Shown here one piece after another: positions 18,982 through 28,746 of a stretch of 64,000 nt of DNA. Within the stretch, counting starts at the first letter, position 1; each line of letters starts with the position of its first letter. The position numbers and the translations under genes were made by a program. The notes under the pieces are model-generated. The model saw only the letters and a program-made list of their open reading frames with translations. It made no database searches and was not told the origin of the DNA. The DNA is taken from the NCBI GenBank assembly GCA_004570425.1, contig SPQJ01000023.1, positions 1-64,000 of the forward strand. The letters are read 5' to 3'. Source of the stretch: Bacillus sp. AZ43 (GTDB lineage: Bacteria > Actinomycetota > Actinomycetes > Mycobacteriales > Geodermatophilaceae).

Positions 18982-19038
18982 GTGCCTCGCGCCTGCCTGC
19001 TTCTCGACGGTTGCCCGGTCAACCTCGTAGTCGCCTAG
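18982..19038 (+). CDS. ilvB leader peptide (Leu/Val-rich, attenuator)
   Basis: An 18-residue reading frame, VPRACLLLDGCPVNLVVA, ends at TAG 19036-19038, where the first hairpin begins. It contains three consecutive Leu codons, a further Leu and several Val codons, as expected for a peptide that senses charged Leu and Val tRNAs upstream of acetolactate synthase. GTG 18982 is 6 bases after the putative -10, so the leader may itself be leaderless; starting at GTG 18976 would add two residues. Ribosome-mediated attenuation before actinobacterial ilvB is established in principle; the assignment here is by eye. Confidence 0.8.
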   Translation: MPRACLLLDGCPVNLVVA

Positions 19039-19096
19039 CGCGTCGGTCACGACCGACGCGCTGACCCCTCCGTGCCTGTGGCACGAGGGGTTTTTT
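19037..19096 (+). promoter_or_regulatory. Transcription attenuator upstream of ilvB
   Basis: Two hairpins follow the leader peptide. The first is AGCGCGTCGGTC (19037-19048) pairing perfectly with 19051-19062, and it begins inside the leader stop codon. The second is CCCCTCCGTGCC (19065-19076) pairing with GGCACGAGGGG (19080-19090) with one bulged C, followed by six T (19091-19096): a classic intrinsic terminator. No convincing antiterminator pairing is obvious by eye. ilvB starts 64 bases after the T run. Confidence 0.8.
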
Positions 19097-19160
19097 GTTG
19101 CCCGGAGCCACCCCGCACGACCCGCCCCACCCGCGACCTGCACGGCCCAGGAGAACCCAG

Positions 19161-21017
19161 ATGACCACCACCCCGAGCGACGCCGCCACCCGTGACGCCG
19201 CCGCGGCGCTGACCGGCGTCGAGACGACGGCCCGGTCGATCGCCGAGGCCGCAGCGGAGCCGGCGACCGGCATCACCGGAGCGCAGAGCCTCGTCCGATC
19301 GCTCGAGGCAGTCGGCGTCGAGGTCATCTTCGGCATCCCCGGGGGCGCGATCCTGCCCGCCTACGACCCGCTGTTCGACTCGAAGGTCCGCCACGTGCTG
19401 GTCCGGCACGAGCAGGGCGCCGGGCACGCGGCCACCGGCTACGCCCAGGCGACCGGCAAGGTCGGCGTCTGCATGGCCACCTCCGGCCCGGGCGCCACGA
19501 ACCTGGTCACCCCGCTGGCCGACGCCCACATGGACTCCGTGCCGATCGTCGCCATCACCGGGCAGGTGCCCAGCGGCGCCATCGGCACCGACGCCTTCCA
19601 GGAAGCCGACATCCGCGGCATCACGATGCCGGTGACCAAGCACAACTTCCTGGTCACCGACGCCGCCGAGATCCCACAGCGGATCGCGGAGGCGTTCCAT
19701 CTGGCCTCGACCGGCCGGCCCGGCCCGGTGCTGGTCGACATCCCCAAGGACGTCCTGCAGGCGACCACCGACTTCTCCTGGCCGCCGCGGCTGGACCTGC
19801 CCGGCTACAAGCCGACGACCCGCCCGCACGGCAAGCAGGTGCGCGAGGCGGCGACCCTGATCGCCGCGGCCCGGCAGCCGGTCCTCTACGTCGGCGGCGG
19901 CGTCCTCAAGGCGCACGCCACCGAGGAGCTGGCCGAGCTCGCCGAGCTGACCGGCGCACCGGTCGTCACCACGCTGATGGCGCGCGGGGCCTTCCCCGAC
20001 AGCCACCCGCAGAACCTGGGCATGCCCGGCATGCACGGGACGGTGGCCGCGGTCACCGCCCTGCAGAAGAGCGACCTCATCGTGGCCCTGGGCGCCCGCT
20101 TCGACGACCGCGTCACCGGCGCGCTGTCGAGCTTCGCCCCCGACGCGCGGGTCATCCACGCCGACATCGACCCTGCGGAGATCGGCAAGAACCGCAAGGC
20201 CGACGTCCCGATCGTCGGCGACGCCAAGGAGACCATCGCCCAGCTCGTCGAGGCGCTGCGTGGCGAGCCGGTCCCCGACCTGTCGGCCTGGTGGGCGCAG
20301 CTCGACGACTGGCGCACCCGGTACCCGCTCGGCTACGACTGGCCGGACGACGGCTCGCTGTCGCCGCAGTACGTGATCGAGCGCCTCGGCGCCATCGCCG
20401 GTCCCGACGCGATCTACGCCGCGGGCGTGGGCCAGCACCAGATGTGGGCCGCGCAGTTCGTGAAGTACGAGAAGCCGGGCACCTGGCTCAACAGCGGCGG
20501 GCTCGGGACGATGGGCTACGCCGTCCCGGCGGCCATGGGCGCCAAGTACGGCCGCCCCGACACCACCGTGTGGGCCATCGACGGCGACGGCTGCTTCCAG
20601 ATGACCAACCAGGAGCTCGCCACCTGCGCGATGGAGGGCATCCCGGTCAAGGTCGCCGTCATCAACAACGGCAACCTCGGCATGGTCCGGCAGTGGCAGA
20701 CCCTGTTCTACGAGGGCCGCTACTCCAACACCCGGCTGCACGCCCGCAACGAGGACGGCACCCCCAAGGCGGTGCGCATCCCCGACTTCGTCCTGCTGGC
20801 CGAGGCGCTCGGCTGCGTGGGGCTGCGCTGCGAGAGCAAGGACGACGTGGACGCCGTCATCGAGAAGGCCATGGCGATCACCGACGCCCCCGTGGTCATC
20901 GACTTCGTCGTCGGCCACGACGCCCAGGTGTGGCCCATGGTCGCCGCCGGCGCCAGCAACGACGACATCCTGGCCGCGCGCGACGTGCGGCCCGTGTTCG
21001 GAGAGGGACAGGTGTAG
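19161..21017 (+). CDS. ilvB: Acetolactate synthase large subunit IlvB
   Basis: ThDP-dependent acetohydroxyacid synthase catalytic subunit; condenses pyruvate with pyruvate or 2-oxobutyrate in the first common step of Val/Leu/Ile synthesis. The 618-residue product has a roughly 40-residue Ala-rich N-terminal extension, catalytic Glu about residue 84 ([10 protein letters not shown]), the central FAD-binding domain and a ThDP motif ([14 protein letters not shown] ... INN). ATG 19161 has AGGAG 8 bases upstream. It heads ilvB-ilvN-ilvC and is controlled by the attenuator immediately upstream. Confidence 0.98.
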
Positions 21018-25915: not shown

Positions 25916-26938
25916 ATGCGCTTGGCAGTGATCGCCGGAGACGGCATCGGCCCGGAGGTCGTCGCCGAGGGCCTCAAGGTCCTGGGGGCGGTCGCGCCCG
26001 ACATCGAGCCCACCCACTACGACCTGGGCGCCATGCGCTGGCAGCGCACCGGCGAGCTGCTCCCCGACACCGTCGTCGAGGAGCTCCGCGGGCACGACGC
26101 GATCCTGCTCGGCGCCATCGGCGACCCGAGCGTGCCGCCGGGCATCCTGGAGCGCGGGCTGCTGCTCCGGCTGCGCTTCGAGCTCGACCACCACGTCAAC
26201 CTCCGCCCGGCGCGGCTGTACGACGGCGTGACCAGCCCGCTGGCCGACCCCGGCCCCATCGACATGCTCTGCGTGCGCGAGGGGACCGAGGGTCCGTACG
26301 TGGGCAACGGCGGCGTGCTCCGCAAGGACACCCCGCAGGAGGTCGCCACCGAGGTCAGCCTCAACACGGCGTTCGGTGTCGAGCGCGTGGTGCGCTACGC
26401 CTTCGAGCGGGCCGTCGCCCGGCCGCGCAAGCACCTCACGCTGATCCACAAGACCAACGTGCTCAGCCACGCCGGCGGGCTCTGGTCGCGCACGGTGGAG
26501 GAGGTGTCCGCGGAGTTCCCCGAGGTCACCGTCGCCTACCAGCACGTCGACGCCGCCTCGATGTTCTTCATCACCGACCCCGGCCGCTACGACGTGATCG
26601 TCACCGACAACCTCTTCGGCGACATCGTCACCGACATCGCCGCCGCGGTCACCGGCGGCATCGGGCTGGCGGCCAGCGGCAACCTCGACGCGTCCGGCAC
26701 CAACCCGAGCATGTTCGAGCCCGTGCACGGCTCGGCGCCGGACATCGCCGGCCAGGGGATCGCCGACCCGACCGCGACCGTCCTGTCGGTGGGTCTGCTG
26801 CTGGAGCACCTGGGCCGGACCGAGCAGGCGAAGAAGGTCAACGCCGCGGTGGCCTTCGACCTGTCCACCCGGACCCCGCAGGGGCCGGTCCGCACGGCCG
26901 ACGTCGGCGACCGGCTGGCCGCGCTCGCCGGGGGCTAG
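25916..26938 (+). CDS. leuB: 3-isopropylmalate dehydrogenase LeuB
   Basis: NAD-dependent oxidative decarboxylase of the leucine pathway; homologues also act on 3-methylmalate in the citramalate route to isoleucine. The 340-residue product begins [15 protein letters not shown] and contains RRL-type substrate residues ([19 protein letters not shown]), [11 protein letters not shown], and the Mg-binding [16 protein letters not shown] 25916 has CAGGAG upstream. It directly precedes the attenuated cimA gene. Confidence 0.97.
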
Positions 26939-26993
26939 GCCCGCGGGAGGCCGGCGGGCGGGGCAGCACGGTCCCGTTCGCCGGCCCCCGTGG

Positions 26994-26999
26994 TTTACT
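26994..26999 (+). promoter_or_regulatory. -10 box (TTTACT) of the cimA leader transcript
   Basis: TTTACT ends 8 bases before the leader-peptide ATG at 27008, the same spacing as the leaderless genes, so the attenuator transcript probably begins at that ATG. Confidence 0.5.
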
Positions 27000-27007
27000 C
27001 CTCGGTG

Positions 27008-27037
27008 ATGTCCGCCACCAGCAGCATTATCGCCTAG
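27008..27037 (+). CDS. cimA leader peptide (tandem Ile codons, attenuator)
   Basis: A 9-residue reading frame, MSATSSIIA, whose ATT ATC codons (27026-27031) are adjacent isoleucines; ATT is a rare codon in this genome. It stops at TAG 27035-27037, inside the first base of the following hairpin. It precedes citramalate synthase, the committed enzyme of a threonine-independent isoleucine route, so Ile-tRNA sensing makes biological sense. The end of this leader (GCCTAGCGCG) is identical to that of the ilvB leader. Too short for normal gene callers; expression is inferred. Confidence 0.75.
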   Translation: MSATSSIIA

Positions 27038-27094
27038 CGCGCAGTCCCTCCCGACTGCGCGCAGACCTCCCGTTCCCGGGGGGTCTTTTTGTTT
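27037..27094 (+). promoter_or_regulatory. Transcription attenuator upstream of cimA
   Basis: First hairpin GCGCGCAGTC (27037-27046) pairs perfectly with 27053-27062. A second hairpin pairs AGACCTCCC (27063-27071) with 27078-27086 (one T-G wobble) and ends in TTTTT then GTTT (27086-27094), an intrinsic terminator. The geometry mirrors the ilvB attenuator: leader stop in hairpin 1, then the terminator directly after. An antiterminator pairing is not evident by eye. Confidence 0.75.
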
Positions 27095-27129
27095 GCCGGG
27101 ACCCTCCCGAACCCCACCAGGAGACCGTC

Positions 27130-28746
27130 GTGACCGCCACCGACTTCCACGTCTTCGACACCACCCTGCGCGACGGCGCCCAGCGGGAGGGCGTGAGCTA
27201 CTCCGTCGCGGACAAGCTGGCCGTCGCCCGCCTCCTCGACGAGATCGGGGTGGGGTTCATCGAGGGCGGCTGGCCGGGCGCGCTGCCCAAGGACACCGAG
27301 TTCTTCTCCCGCGCCCGCACCGAGCTCAAGCTCCGGCACGCGCAGCTCGTGGCCTTCGGGGCGACGCGCAAGGCCGGGGTGCGGGTCGAGGACGACCTGC
27401 AGGTGCGCGCGCTGCTCGACGCCGAGACGCCGGTCGTCTGCCTGGTGGCGAAGTCCGACGTCCGCCACGTCCGGGAGGCGCTGCGGACGACGCTGGAGGA
27501 GAACCTCGCGATGGTCGCCGACACGGTGGCCTTCCTCGTCGGCCACGGCCGGCGGGTCTTCGTCGACTGCGAGCACTTCTTCGACGGCTACGCCGCCGAC
27601 CCCGACTACGGCGTGCGGGTCCTCGAGGCGGCGTTCGCCGCCGGCGCGGAGGTCGGCGTCCTGTGCGACACCAACGGCGGGATGCTGCCGATGGGCGTCG
27701 GCCGGGTGGTGGCCGACGTCCGGGCCCACACCACGGGGAAGCTCGGCATCCACTGCCAGGACGACACCGGCTGCGCGGTCGCCAACACGCTCGCGGCCGT
27801 CGAGGCAGGGGTCACGCACGTGCAGGGGACGGCGAACGGCTACGGCGAGCGGGCGGGCAACGCCGACACGTTCGTCCTGATCGCCAACCTGGTGACCAAG
27901 ATGGGGCTGCCGGTCGTCCCGGCCGAGTGCCTGCCCGAGCTGCAGCGGGTGAGCCACGCGATCGCGGAGCTGGCCAACATCGCCCCGGACGACCACCAGC
28001 CGTTCGTGGGCGCCTCGGCCTTCGCACACAAGGCGGGCCTGCACGCCAGCGCGATCAAGGTCAGCCCCGAGCTCTACAACCACCTCGACCCGGCGGTCGT
28101 GGGCAACGACATGCGCATCCTGGTCACCGAGATGGCCGGCCGCGCGTCGGTGGAGCTCAAGGGCCGCGAGCTCGGCGTGGACCTGGCCGGTCACGCCGAC
28201 GCGATCGGCCGGGTGGTCGACCGGGTCAAGGTCCTCGAGGCCGACGGCTGGTCGTTCGAGGCCGCCGACGCCTCCTTCGAGCTGCTGCTGCGCTCCCAGC
28301 TGCCCGACGCCCCGGCCCCGCTGTTCGAGCTGGAGAGCTACCGGACGTCGGTGGAGCACTGGGGGAACGGGGTCGTGGTCAGCGAGGCCACGGTGAAGGT
28401 GCACGTCGACGGGGAGCGGATCATCAGCACCGCCGAGGGCAACGGCCCGGTCAACGCCCTGGACAACGCCCTGCGGCAGGCGCTGGTGGGCCGCTACCCC
28501 CAGCTCGCCGACGTCTCGCTGGCCGACTACAAGGTGCGCATCCTCGGCTGGCGGGGCGGGACGAGCGCCACCACGCGGGTGCTGATCGACACCACCGACG
28601 GGGTCCGCGAGTGGACGACCGTGGGTGTCCACGACAACGTGGTCGAGGCGTCCTGGCACGCGTTGGTCGACGCCCTGACGTACGCCGTGGTGCGCGGTCG
28701 TCCGTCGTCGCCCGAGGCGGGTCACGGAGCCGTCACGGTCGTTTGA
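27130..28746 (+). CDS. cimA: (R)-citramalate synthase CimA
   Basis: Condenses pyruvate and acetyl-CoA to citramalate, feeding 2-oxobutyrate and isoleucine without threonine deaminase. The 538-residue product has the DRE-TIM start FDTTLRDGAQREG, HCQDDTGCAVANT metal-binding His region, GYGERAGNAD, and a C-terminal LeuA-type regulatory domain (about 400-530), where isoleucine would bind. The DGAQREG and GERAGN motifs and the 'FVGASAFAHKAGLHASA' region match the CimA branch rather than LeuA. GTG 27130 has AGGAG 8 bases upstream. Expression is probably controlled by the Ile-codon attenuator. Alternative: homocitrate or isopropylmalate synthase paralogue, less likely. Confidence 0.93.
   Translation: MTATDFHVFDTTLRDGAQREGVSYSVADKLAVARLLDEIGVGFIEGGWPGALPKDTEFFSRARTELKLRHAQLVAFGATRKAGVRVEDDLQVRALLDAETPVVCLVAKSDVRHVREALRTTLEENLAMVADTVAFLVGHGRRVFVDCEHFFDGYAADPDYGVRVLEAAFAAGAEVGVLCDTNGGMLPMGVGRVVADVRAHTTGKLGIHCQDDTGCAVANTLAAVEAGVTHVQGTANGYGERAGNADTFVLIANLVTKMGLPVVPAECLPELQRVSHAIAELANIAPDDHQPFVGASAFAHKAGLHASAIKVSPELYNHLDPAVVGNDMRILVTEMAGRASVELKGRELGVDLAGHADAIGRVVDRVKVLEADGWSFEAADASFELLLRSQLPDAPAPLFELESYRTSVEHWGNGVVVSEATVKVHVDGERIISTAEGNGPVNALDNALRQALVGRYPQLADVSLADYKVRILGWRGGTSATTRVLIDTTDGVREWTTVGVHDNVVEASWHALVDALTYAVVRGRPSSPEAGHGAVTVV

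Follow-up and report, generated by a model that had tools for sequence, protein, structure and literature searches.

Sequence comparison points to a putative isoleucine-codon attenuator in front of the citramalate synthase gene cimA in Actinobacteria

The intergenic stretch between leuB and cimA of Bacillus sp. AZ43 very probably carries an attenuator in which the ribosome senses Ile-tRNA and thereby controls cimA, a reading that is meant in general and includes the versions with an antiterminator as well as those with a polymerase pause. Attenuation of this kind had been proposed in a first-pass annotation of the window (the whole analysed stretch of 64,000 nucleotides) and is supported by sequence comparison, given that the isoleucine codons follow the downstream gene, the frame appears leaderless, and the arrangement is conserved. 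The comparison brings together a short frame with isoleucine codons, the choice of a rare codon among these, the promoter spacing in relatives, two hairpins with zero spacing between them, and the match between codons and gene.

In the window, leuB (3-isopropylmalate dehydrogenase; 25916-26938), which is itself preceded by serA (phosphoglycerate dehydrogenase), is followed by the leader and then by cimA. The elements read from this locus are listed below.

26991-26999, forward strand: putative extended -10 promoter element TGG-TTTACT, 8 nt 5' of the uORF ATG (from sequence)
27008-27037, forward strand: leader-peptide frame (uORF) MSATSSIIA with stop TAG (from sequence; similar frames in relatives)
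27037-27062, forward strand: hairpin P1, 10 bp with a 6-nt loop (from sequence and folding; covariation at 7 of 10 pairs)
27063-27086, forward strand: 10-bp stem of an intrinsic terminator, with a T-run at 27086-27090 (terminator scan; covariation at 8 of 10 pairs)
27130-28746, forward strand: cimA, citramalate synthase, the presumed regulated gene (TIGR00977, 621.3 bits, cut-off 450)

The frame reads ATG TCC GCC ACC AGC AGC ATT ATC GCC TAG, with the control codons ATT ATC as codons seven and eight (27026-27031), so that the nine-codon frame with adjacent isoleucine codons of the first-pass annotation is borne out, as is its 10-bp hairpin followed by an intrinsic terminator. The arms of P1 are GCGCGCAGTC (27037-27046) and GACTGCGCGC (27053-27062), those of the terminator are AGACCTCCCG (27063-27072) and CGGGGGGTCT (27077-27086), and the two hairpins are separated by 0 nt. 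The stop codon had been placed inside the first hairpin, which is correct for the G of TAG, the first paired base of P1, but not for the TA, which lies outside. Between the T-run and the GTG start of cimA (27130) there are 39 nt. A terminator scan of 26500-27500 returned three overlapping versions of a single hairpin, with 0.2 expected, and folding of the leader RNA, which the annotation had suggested as a check, gave a fold of -64.4 kcal/mol (z -4.71; 0 of 200 shuffles equally good). The cimA protein is 91.7-94.1% identical to those of four Blastococcus matches (L179, L194, L206, L222), and since this genus belongs to Geodermatophilaceae, the window probably comes from that family.

Comparison of the region upstream of cimA indicates that the frame, P1 and the terminator recur in the order, in the class and in other classes of the phylum. 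Among 61 relatives, 55 match the query 26990-27200, some of them only in its 71 cimA bases. In the 30 best-match loci, which were chosen for similarity and include the window itself, there is invariably a short frame with at least two isoleucine codons and a TAG on P1; the isoleucine codons are adjacent in 27 (the exceptions are L007, L014 and L020), and the N-terminal codons vary while the isoleucine end and the hairpins are constant. Two covariance models were used for wider searches, R1, built from P1 and the terminator with the isoleucine columns included, and a broader one, R2. Matches to R1 were obtained in 186 of 298 genomes of the order and in 131 of 296 genomes of the class, and matches to R2 in 69 of 246 genomes of the phylum, some of these matches lying before ilvB; the counts are lower bounds, because some model-negative genomes carry the element. 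In the class sample, cimA scores above the family cut-off in 230 of the 296 genomes. When 20 cimA upstream regions were picked from model-negative genomes, seven contained the element according to R1 in the smaller search, two more did by eye, and 11 had no leader, the last figure being one that counts against isoleucine attenuation. These 11 include small genomes in which cimA lies directly behind another gene; in the small genomes of L273-L276 and L282, which have no leader, this is, by eye, a branched-chain-aminotransferase-like gene.

The genes behind the element were assigned in 80 model-derived loci chosen across families of the order and class: 73 lie before cimA and five before ilvB, and two are undecided (L139, L142). 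Of 20 model matches from other classes of the phylum, three are before cimA and have isoleucine runs (L294, L298, L302), 11 have ilvB downstream (further away in L297 and L299), and five show neither a cimA nor an ilvB match (L289, L291, L292, L301 and L304, the last without a leader). The remaining locus, L290, has a weak cimA-family match downstream and the leucine codon run CTG CTT CTC on the same chassis; we take its downstream gene to resemble 2-isopropylmalate synthase. A small protein is encoded right behind the leader in L289 (start MKFEIYNGEHVGTAEWQGPG), L291, L292, L297, L299 and L301. On the evidence of these comparisons the element is widespread in the phylum, an extent about which the first-pass annotation had been modest.

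Because R1 contains the isoleucine columns, isoleucine counts were taken from another set, for which named genomes were searched for the terminator sequence only, without these columns. This search gave at least 118 stretches, and the 80 listed titles are all of actinobacteria judging by their names. Among the matches listed, 112 of 118 are located directly before a same-strand cimA, and in the other six the fetched DNA ends 17-164 nt past the terminator. A start-to-stop frame with tandem isoleucine codons is present in 110 of the 117 listed matches that have enough upstream DNA, compared with 1.9 expected from dinucleotide shuffles; many of these sequences are akin, and the counts are not counts of independent events. 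The seven listed leaders that have no tandem pair, four of them with ATG ATT ATG or ATG ATT AGC, also count against the isoleucine reading. One or the other of these two motifs, combined with a long P1, occurs in L174 (Kitasatospora), L213 (Streptomyces), L228, L245, L280 and L281, and other Streptomyces (L153, L158) retain the isoleucine pair. Given that the frame is defined by its isoleucine pair, an in-frame stop is there by construction and only the position of the stop relative to P1 is informative. Among the matches listed, the stop coincides with the base at which P1 begins in 56 of 110; the remaining 54 stops lie 10, 13 or 16 nt into the P1 5' arm (34, 3 and 14 leaders, respectively) or elsewhere (3). 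As far as sequence comparison goes, therefore, the leader holds a short frame whose consecutive control codons specify the amino acid of the pathway.

The codon used for isoleucine in the frame is itself unusual. The first-pass annotation had called ATT rare in this genome, and indeed all 96 isoleucine codons of ilvB, ilvC, serA, leuB and cimA in the window are ATC, with ATT at 0 of 96. Among the matches listed, the uORFs have 143 ATT and 107 ATC (ATT 143 of 250), as against 22 ATT in 1425 isoleucine codons of the 86 cimA bodies from the same loci, again among the matches listed. Taken together, these numbers suggest selection for the rare codon at the control position.

The beginning of the frame seems to coincide with that of the transcript. 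Among the matches listed, an extended -10 box, TGNNANNNT, ends 4-10 nt 5' of the uORF start in 99 of 110 leaders, where 4.6 are expected, and in 80 of these 99 the distance is 6-7 nt. With a -10 box so close, the transcription start should coincide with the start codon or adjoin it, which supports the view that the uORF is leaderless. In the window, TTTACT was indeed found at the position claimed for it, 8 bases before the ATG; it has no A at position 2 of the -10 box and thus departs from the TGNNANNNT pattern at one position, and a scan of the window leader for sigma-70 consensus promoters found none, so that the putative promoter of the window rests on comparison with relatives. An ordinary arrangement, in which the leuB transcript stops at the terminator, cimA is expressed from a promoter of its own and the small frame is due to chance, is extremely improbable: leuB does end at 26938, only 69 nt before the frame, but just 39 nt are available between the T-run and cimA, and neither the excess of tandem-isoleucine frames nor the promoter-like box kept before them would be expected.

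The control codons can be compared with those of a second leader, given that R1 and R2 both detect a sister element in the window.

19024-19098, forward strand: sister element before ilvB, on the same chassis (R1 E 2.2e-6, R2 E 4.3e-10)

Here, CTC GTA GTC GCC precedes a TAG (19036-19038), the stop lies on P1, the terminator follows, and ilvB starts at 19161. The third model match in the genome has E-values of 0.15 (R1) and 0.29 (R2). After removal of duplicates and of rows that failed a hairpin or T-run filter, 108 cimA and eight ilvB leaders with a stop adjoining P1 were kept from 249 loci examined. The last six codons of the cimA leaders contain on average 2.32 Ile, 0.40 Leu and 0.44 Val, compared with 0.62 Ile, 1.5 Leu and 2.38 Val in the ilvB leaders, and at least two isoleucine codons are found in this stretch in 101 of 108 cimA leaders and in 0 of 8 ilvB leaders. 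As a point against the isoleucine reading, Leu or Val is present among the last four codons of 42 of the 108 cimA leaders. The identity of the control codons thus follows the downstream gene, which supports isoleucine specificity, and the cimA element, despite the same chassis, differs from the ilvB type of leader, which is located before ilvB and has mixed Ile/Leu/Val codons. Another point against the attenuation reading comes from the ilvB leader of Streptomyces coelicolor, in which, according to the accessible part of an earlier study, codon changes were reported to have no effect (PMC1262725).

The two hairpins are supported by covariation. In an alignment of 83 diverse sequences, 96.6% of the cells pair, both sides have changed at 15 of 20 pairs, and 184 cells are double-changed, where shuffles give 37.5 (none of 500 reaches the observed value), although the alignment was fitted to the structure and leans towards it, and kinship of the sequences inflates the counts. 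Slid structures score 0.02-0.08 vs 0.385 for the unshifted structure. A covariation test on 30 close relatives was uninformative, the hairpin arms being too conserved. Prediction and covariation together place an intrinsic terminator between the leader frame and the gene. The spacing between P1 and the terminator is zero in 79 of the 83 diverse sequences, a figure we use in preference to the 115 of 117 among the matches listed in the terminator search, because the latter is partly built into the search pattern. In 71 of the 83, P1 follows 5-8 nt after the end of the last tandem isoleucine pair, and nine have no tandem pair there.

In the window (27037-27072) and in relatives, the lower part of P1 (GCGCG/CGCGC) and the base of the terminator (AGACCTC) are conserved in sequence beyond the needs of pairing. 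Such conservation could indicate a protein or another factor that binds the lower P1 and the terminator base, with the uORF being secondary, as has been suggested for the LEU element of leuA in the portion of that report available to us (PMC1262725). The near invariance of lower P1 pairs that would be free to covary fits this proposal, as does the precedent, but we consider it very improbable, since factor binding leaves the tandem isoleucine codons, the rare ATT, the position of the stop and the codon switch at ilvB unexplained.

Returning to ribosome-mediated attenuation, the zero spacing (79 of 83) and the placement of the isoleucine pair 5-8 nt before P1 (71 of 83) imply that the position of the ribosome would first of all set the state of P1. 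This was modelled with a ribosome that covers 12 nt beyond the A-site codon, after the 26-nt footprint given for Mycobacterium tuberculosis ilvB1 in the accessible text of PMC13236596. Across 111 simulated leaders, the mean pairing of the lower P1 is 0.96 in naked RNA, 0.52 with the ribosome on the first isoleucine codon, 0.08 on the last and 0.00 on the stop codon; in simulation, that is, a ribosome at the control codons masks the 5' arm of P1. Terminator pairing, in contrast, averages 0.96-0.97 whatever the ribosome state, and no leader among the 111 has a value below 0.5. The weakest step of the model is therefore how the opening of P1 would lower termination: in the simulations the stalled ribosome opens P1, not the terminator.

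The following scheme would be compatible with these features. Transcription would start at or next to the ATG, and a ribosome would load at the leader's 5' end and translate the nine codons. With plentiful Ile-tRNA, it would pass ATT ATC and leave at the stop, P1 and the terminator would form end to end, and transcription would terminate before cimA. When Ile-tRNA is scarce, the ribosome would park on the isoleucine codons before P1, its footprint would keep the lower P1 open, and more read-through would result. Translation and stalling are inferred here, and the direction of control, with low isoleucine turning cimA on, is taken from pathway logic and precedent. A ribosome that has reached the stop codon opens P1 as well, so the scheme requires that it leave quickly. 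For the last step we tentatively prefer, as a possibility that has somewhat less than even support, the version in which P1, stacked directly on the terminator, aids termination, and its loss would weaken the terminator without a strong competing helix.

A truly mutually exclusive antiterminator, formed either by the P1 loop and the right shoulder of the terminator or by a small hairpin of the P1 3' arm and the left shoulder, would provide another explanation, which we consider unlikely. Pairing of the loop with the right shoulder has been proposed for Corynebacterium ilvB-II in the accessible part of PMC10272879, the window loop CCTCCC could pair with GGGGGG, and loops of the family are mostly C-rich. 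As a general antiterminator this pairing was rejected: it fits the window but fails across the order, where the P1 loop is not conserved (L066, L071, L074). Duplexes were assessed between P1 without its first eight bases and, separately, the left shoulder plus loop and the right shoulder, each against the mean of 30 shuffles; among the matches listed, those with the right shoulder were better than the shuffled mean in just 38 of 118 leaders and those with the left in 13 of 118. Mutual information over pairs of alignment columns recovered only P1 and terminator pairs, neighbours and gap patterns, and no other helix.

The second candidate depends on lineage. In terminators with ACCTCTCGC, folding often joins the left shoulder to the P1 3' arm, once this is free, in a small hairpin, GCG.AG/CU.CGC, worth about -3.9 kcal/mol. 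At the stage at which the right shoulder has yet to be transcribed, the left one is paired (mean above 0.5) in 7 of 111 naked leaders, in 50 of 111 with the ribosome on the last isoleucine codon and in 32 of 111 with the ribosome on the stop. According to these simulations, some lineages, in which pairing of the left shoulder rises with the ribosome, may have a weak antiterminator. Against a general role, this hairpin is far weaker than the terminator (median energy -18.3 kcal/mol), its formation extends to leaders with the ribosome on the stop, and folding of the window does not predict it: left-shoulder pairing there is 0.22 in the stalled and 0.20 in the naked state. The small hairpin is predicted, once P1 is open, in L146, L149, L153 and others with ACCTCTCGC.

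Thus, no strong antiterminator was found by duplex energies, by pairing in four ribosome states or by mutual information, and in the window no antiterminator helix exclusive with the terminator emerged; the absence of an evident antiterminator pairing reported in the first-pass annotation withstood all three analyses of the window, and because none is evident there, the textbook mechanism of attenuation is not established. A role of P1 itself as a steric antiterminator was also considered and dropped, given that the terminator-facing end of P1 is what a ribosome on the isoleucine codons would unfold.

P1 might instead be mainly a pause hairpin at which RNA polymerase awaits the ribosome, in which case the decision would be taken by polymerase-ribosome contact and not by RNA pairing. 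P1 is placed like the pause hairpin of classical attenuators, and the strong conservation of AGACCTC just 3' of P1 is what might be expected of the hybrid sequence at a pause; no clear consensus pause element was recognized by eye, however, and we rate this version as decidedly unlikely. A broader proposal would make these leaders a class of attenuator of their own that lacks a strong antiterminator. In such a coaxial tandem terminator, a ribosome-controlled hairpin would abut the terminator with zero spacing, the ribosome would tune termination by opening this neighbouring helix or letting it form, and a phylum-wide chassis would have its codons swapped, with Ile for cimA, Val/Leu for ilvB and perhaps Leu for leuA, for which L290 is the one weak case. 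We regard this proposal as doubtful.

Classical attenuators of the trp/his type combine control codons, a stop at the first hairpin, a terminator, coupling of transcription and translation, and a 2:3 antiterminator. The cimA leader shares the control codons, the stop at the first hairpin, the terminator and, presumably, the coupling, but differs in having no strong 2:3 antiterminator, in hairpins that adjoin without overlap and in an apparently leaderless frame.

The closest known systems are the attenuators of ilvB and ilvBNC (Corynebacterium ilvB-II, M. tuberculosis ilvB1, Streptomyces ilvL), which, as described in the available text of the respective reports, likewise have a short, often leaderless frame with branched-chain codons near a hairpin, a terminator and a branched-chain gene (PMC10272879, PMC11857589, PMC13236596, PMC8079986, PMC1262725). 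The ilvB leader of the window even has the same P1-terminator chassis. Apart from the target gene and the low isoleucine content of the ilvB leaders noted above (0.62 vs 2.32 per last six codons), the difference is that the attenuators of Corynebacterium and M. tuberculosis ilvB, which have experimental support, are explained in the accessible portions of those papers by alternative or overlapping antiterminator pairing (PMC10272879, PMC11857589, PMC13236596), for which cimA has no strong counterpart. A study of 2005 had already predicted leader peptides and terminators for ilvB in Actinobacteria, although some components of an attenuator were absent; its accessible part reports no conserved structures for pathways beyond those it names (PMC1262725). 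For Streptomyces lividans, eight leaders are reported, none of them at cimA in the available portion of the paper (PMC8079986). In the open-access literature searched, we found no description of a cimA attenuator.

Two other actinobacterial elements are similar in part, as far as the accessible text of PMC1262725 describes them. The LEU element before leuA resembles the cimA leader in having a leader peptide rich in the end product of the pathway and a gene for a related enzyme, but it is a pseudoknot that pairs with the ribosome site of leuA, whereas the cimA leader has an intrinsic terminator (PMC1262725). The T-box before ileS also senses isoleucine supply on RNA (PMC1262725). It is, however, a tRNA-binding riboswitch, and the cimA leader matches no Rfam family at the gathering score: a scan of 26000-28000 of the window gave six matches of 16-20 bits, all below that score, and a scan of ten diverse loci gave 0 families.

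If the attenuation reading is correct, isoleucine would exert direct control on cimA, the entry of pyruvate into isoleucine synthesis, in a large bacterial group that includes the antibiotic producers Streptomyces, Micromonospora and Pseudonocardia. Since a single amino acid predominates among the control codons and a single gene is the target, the cimA leader would allow a long-standing question to be tested more cleanly than ilvB does, namely whether the branched-chain leaders of actinobacteria, whose attenuator parts often seem to be missing according to the accessible part of PMC1262725, work by ribosome stalling, and how read-through would then be achieved. Furthermore, the swapping of codons on one RNA chassis would make the specificity of such leaders predictable from sequence.
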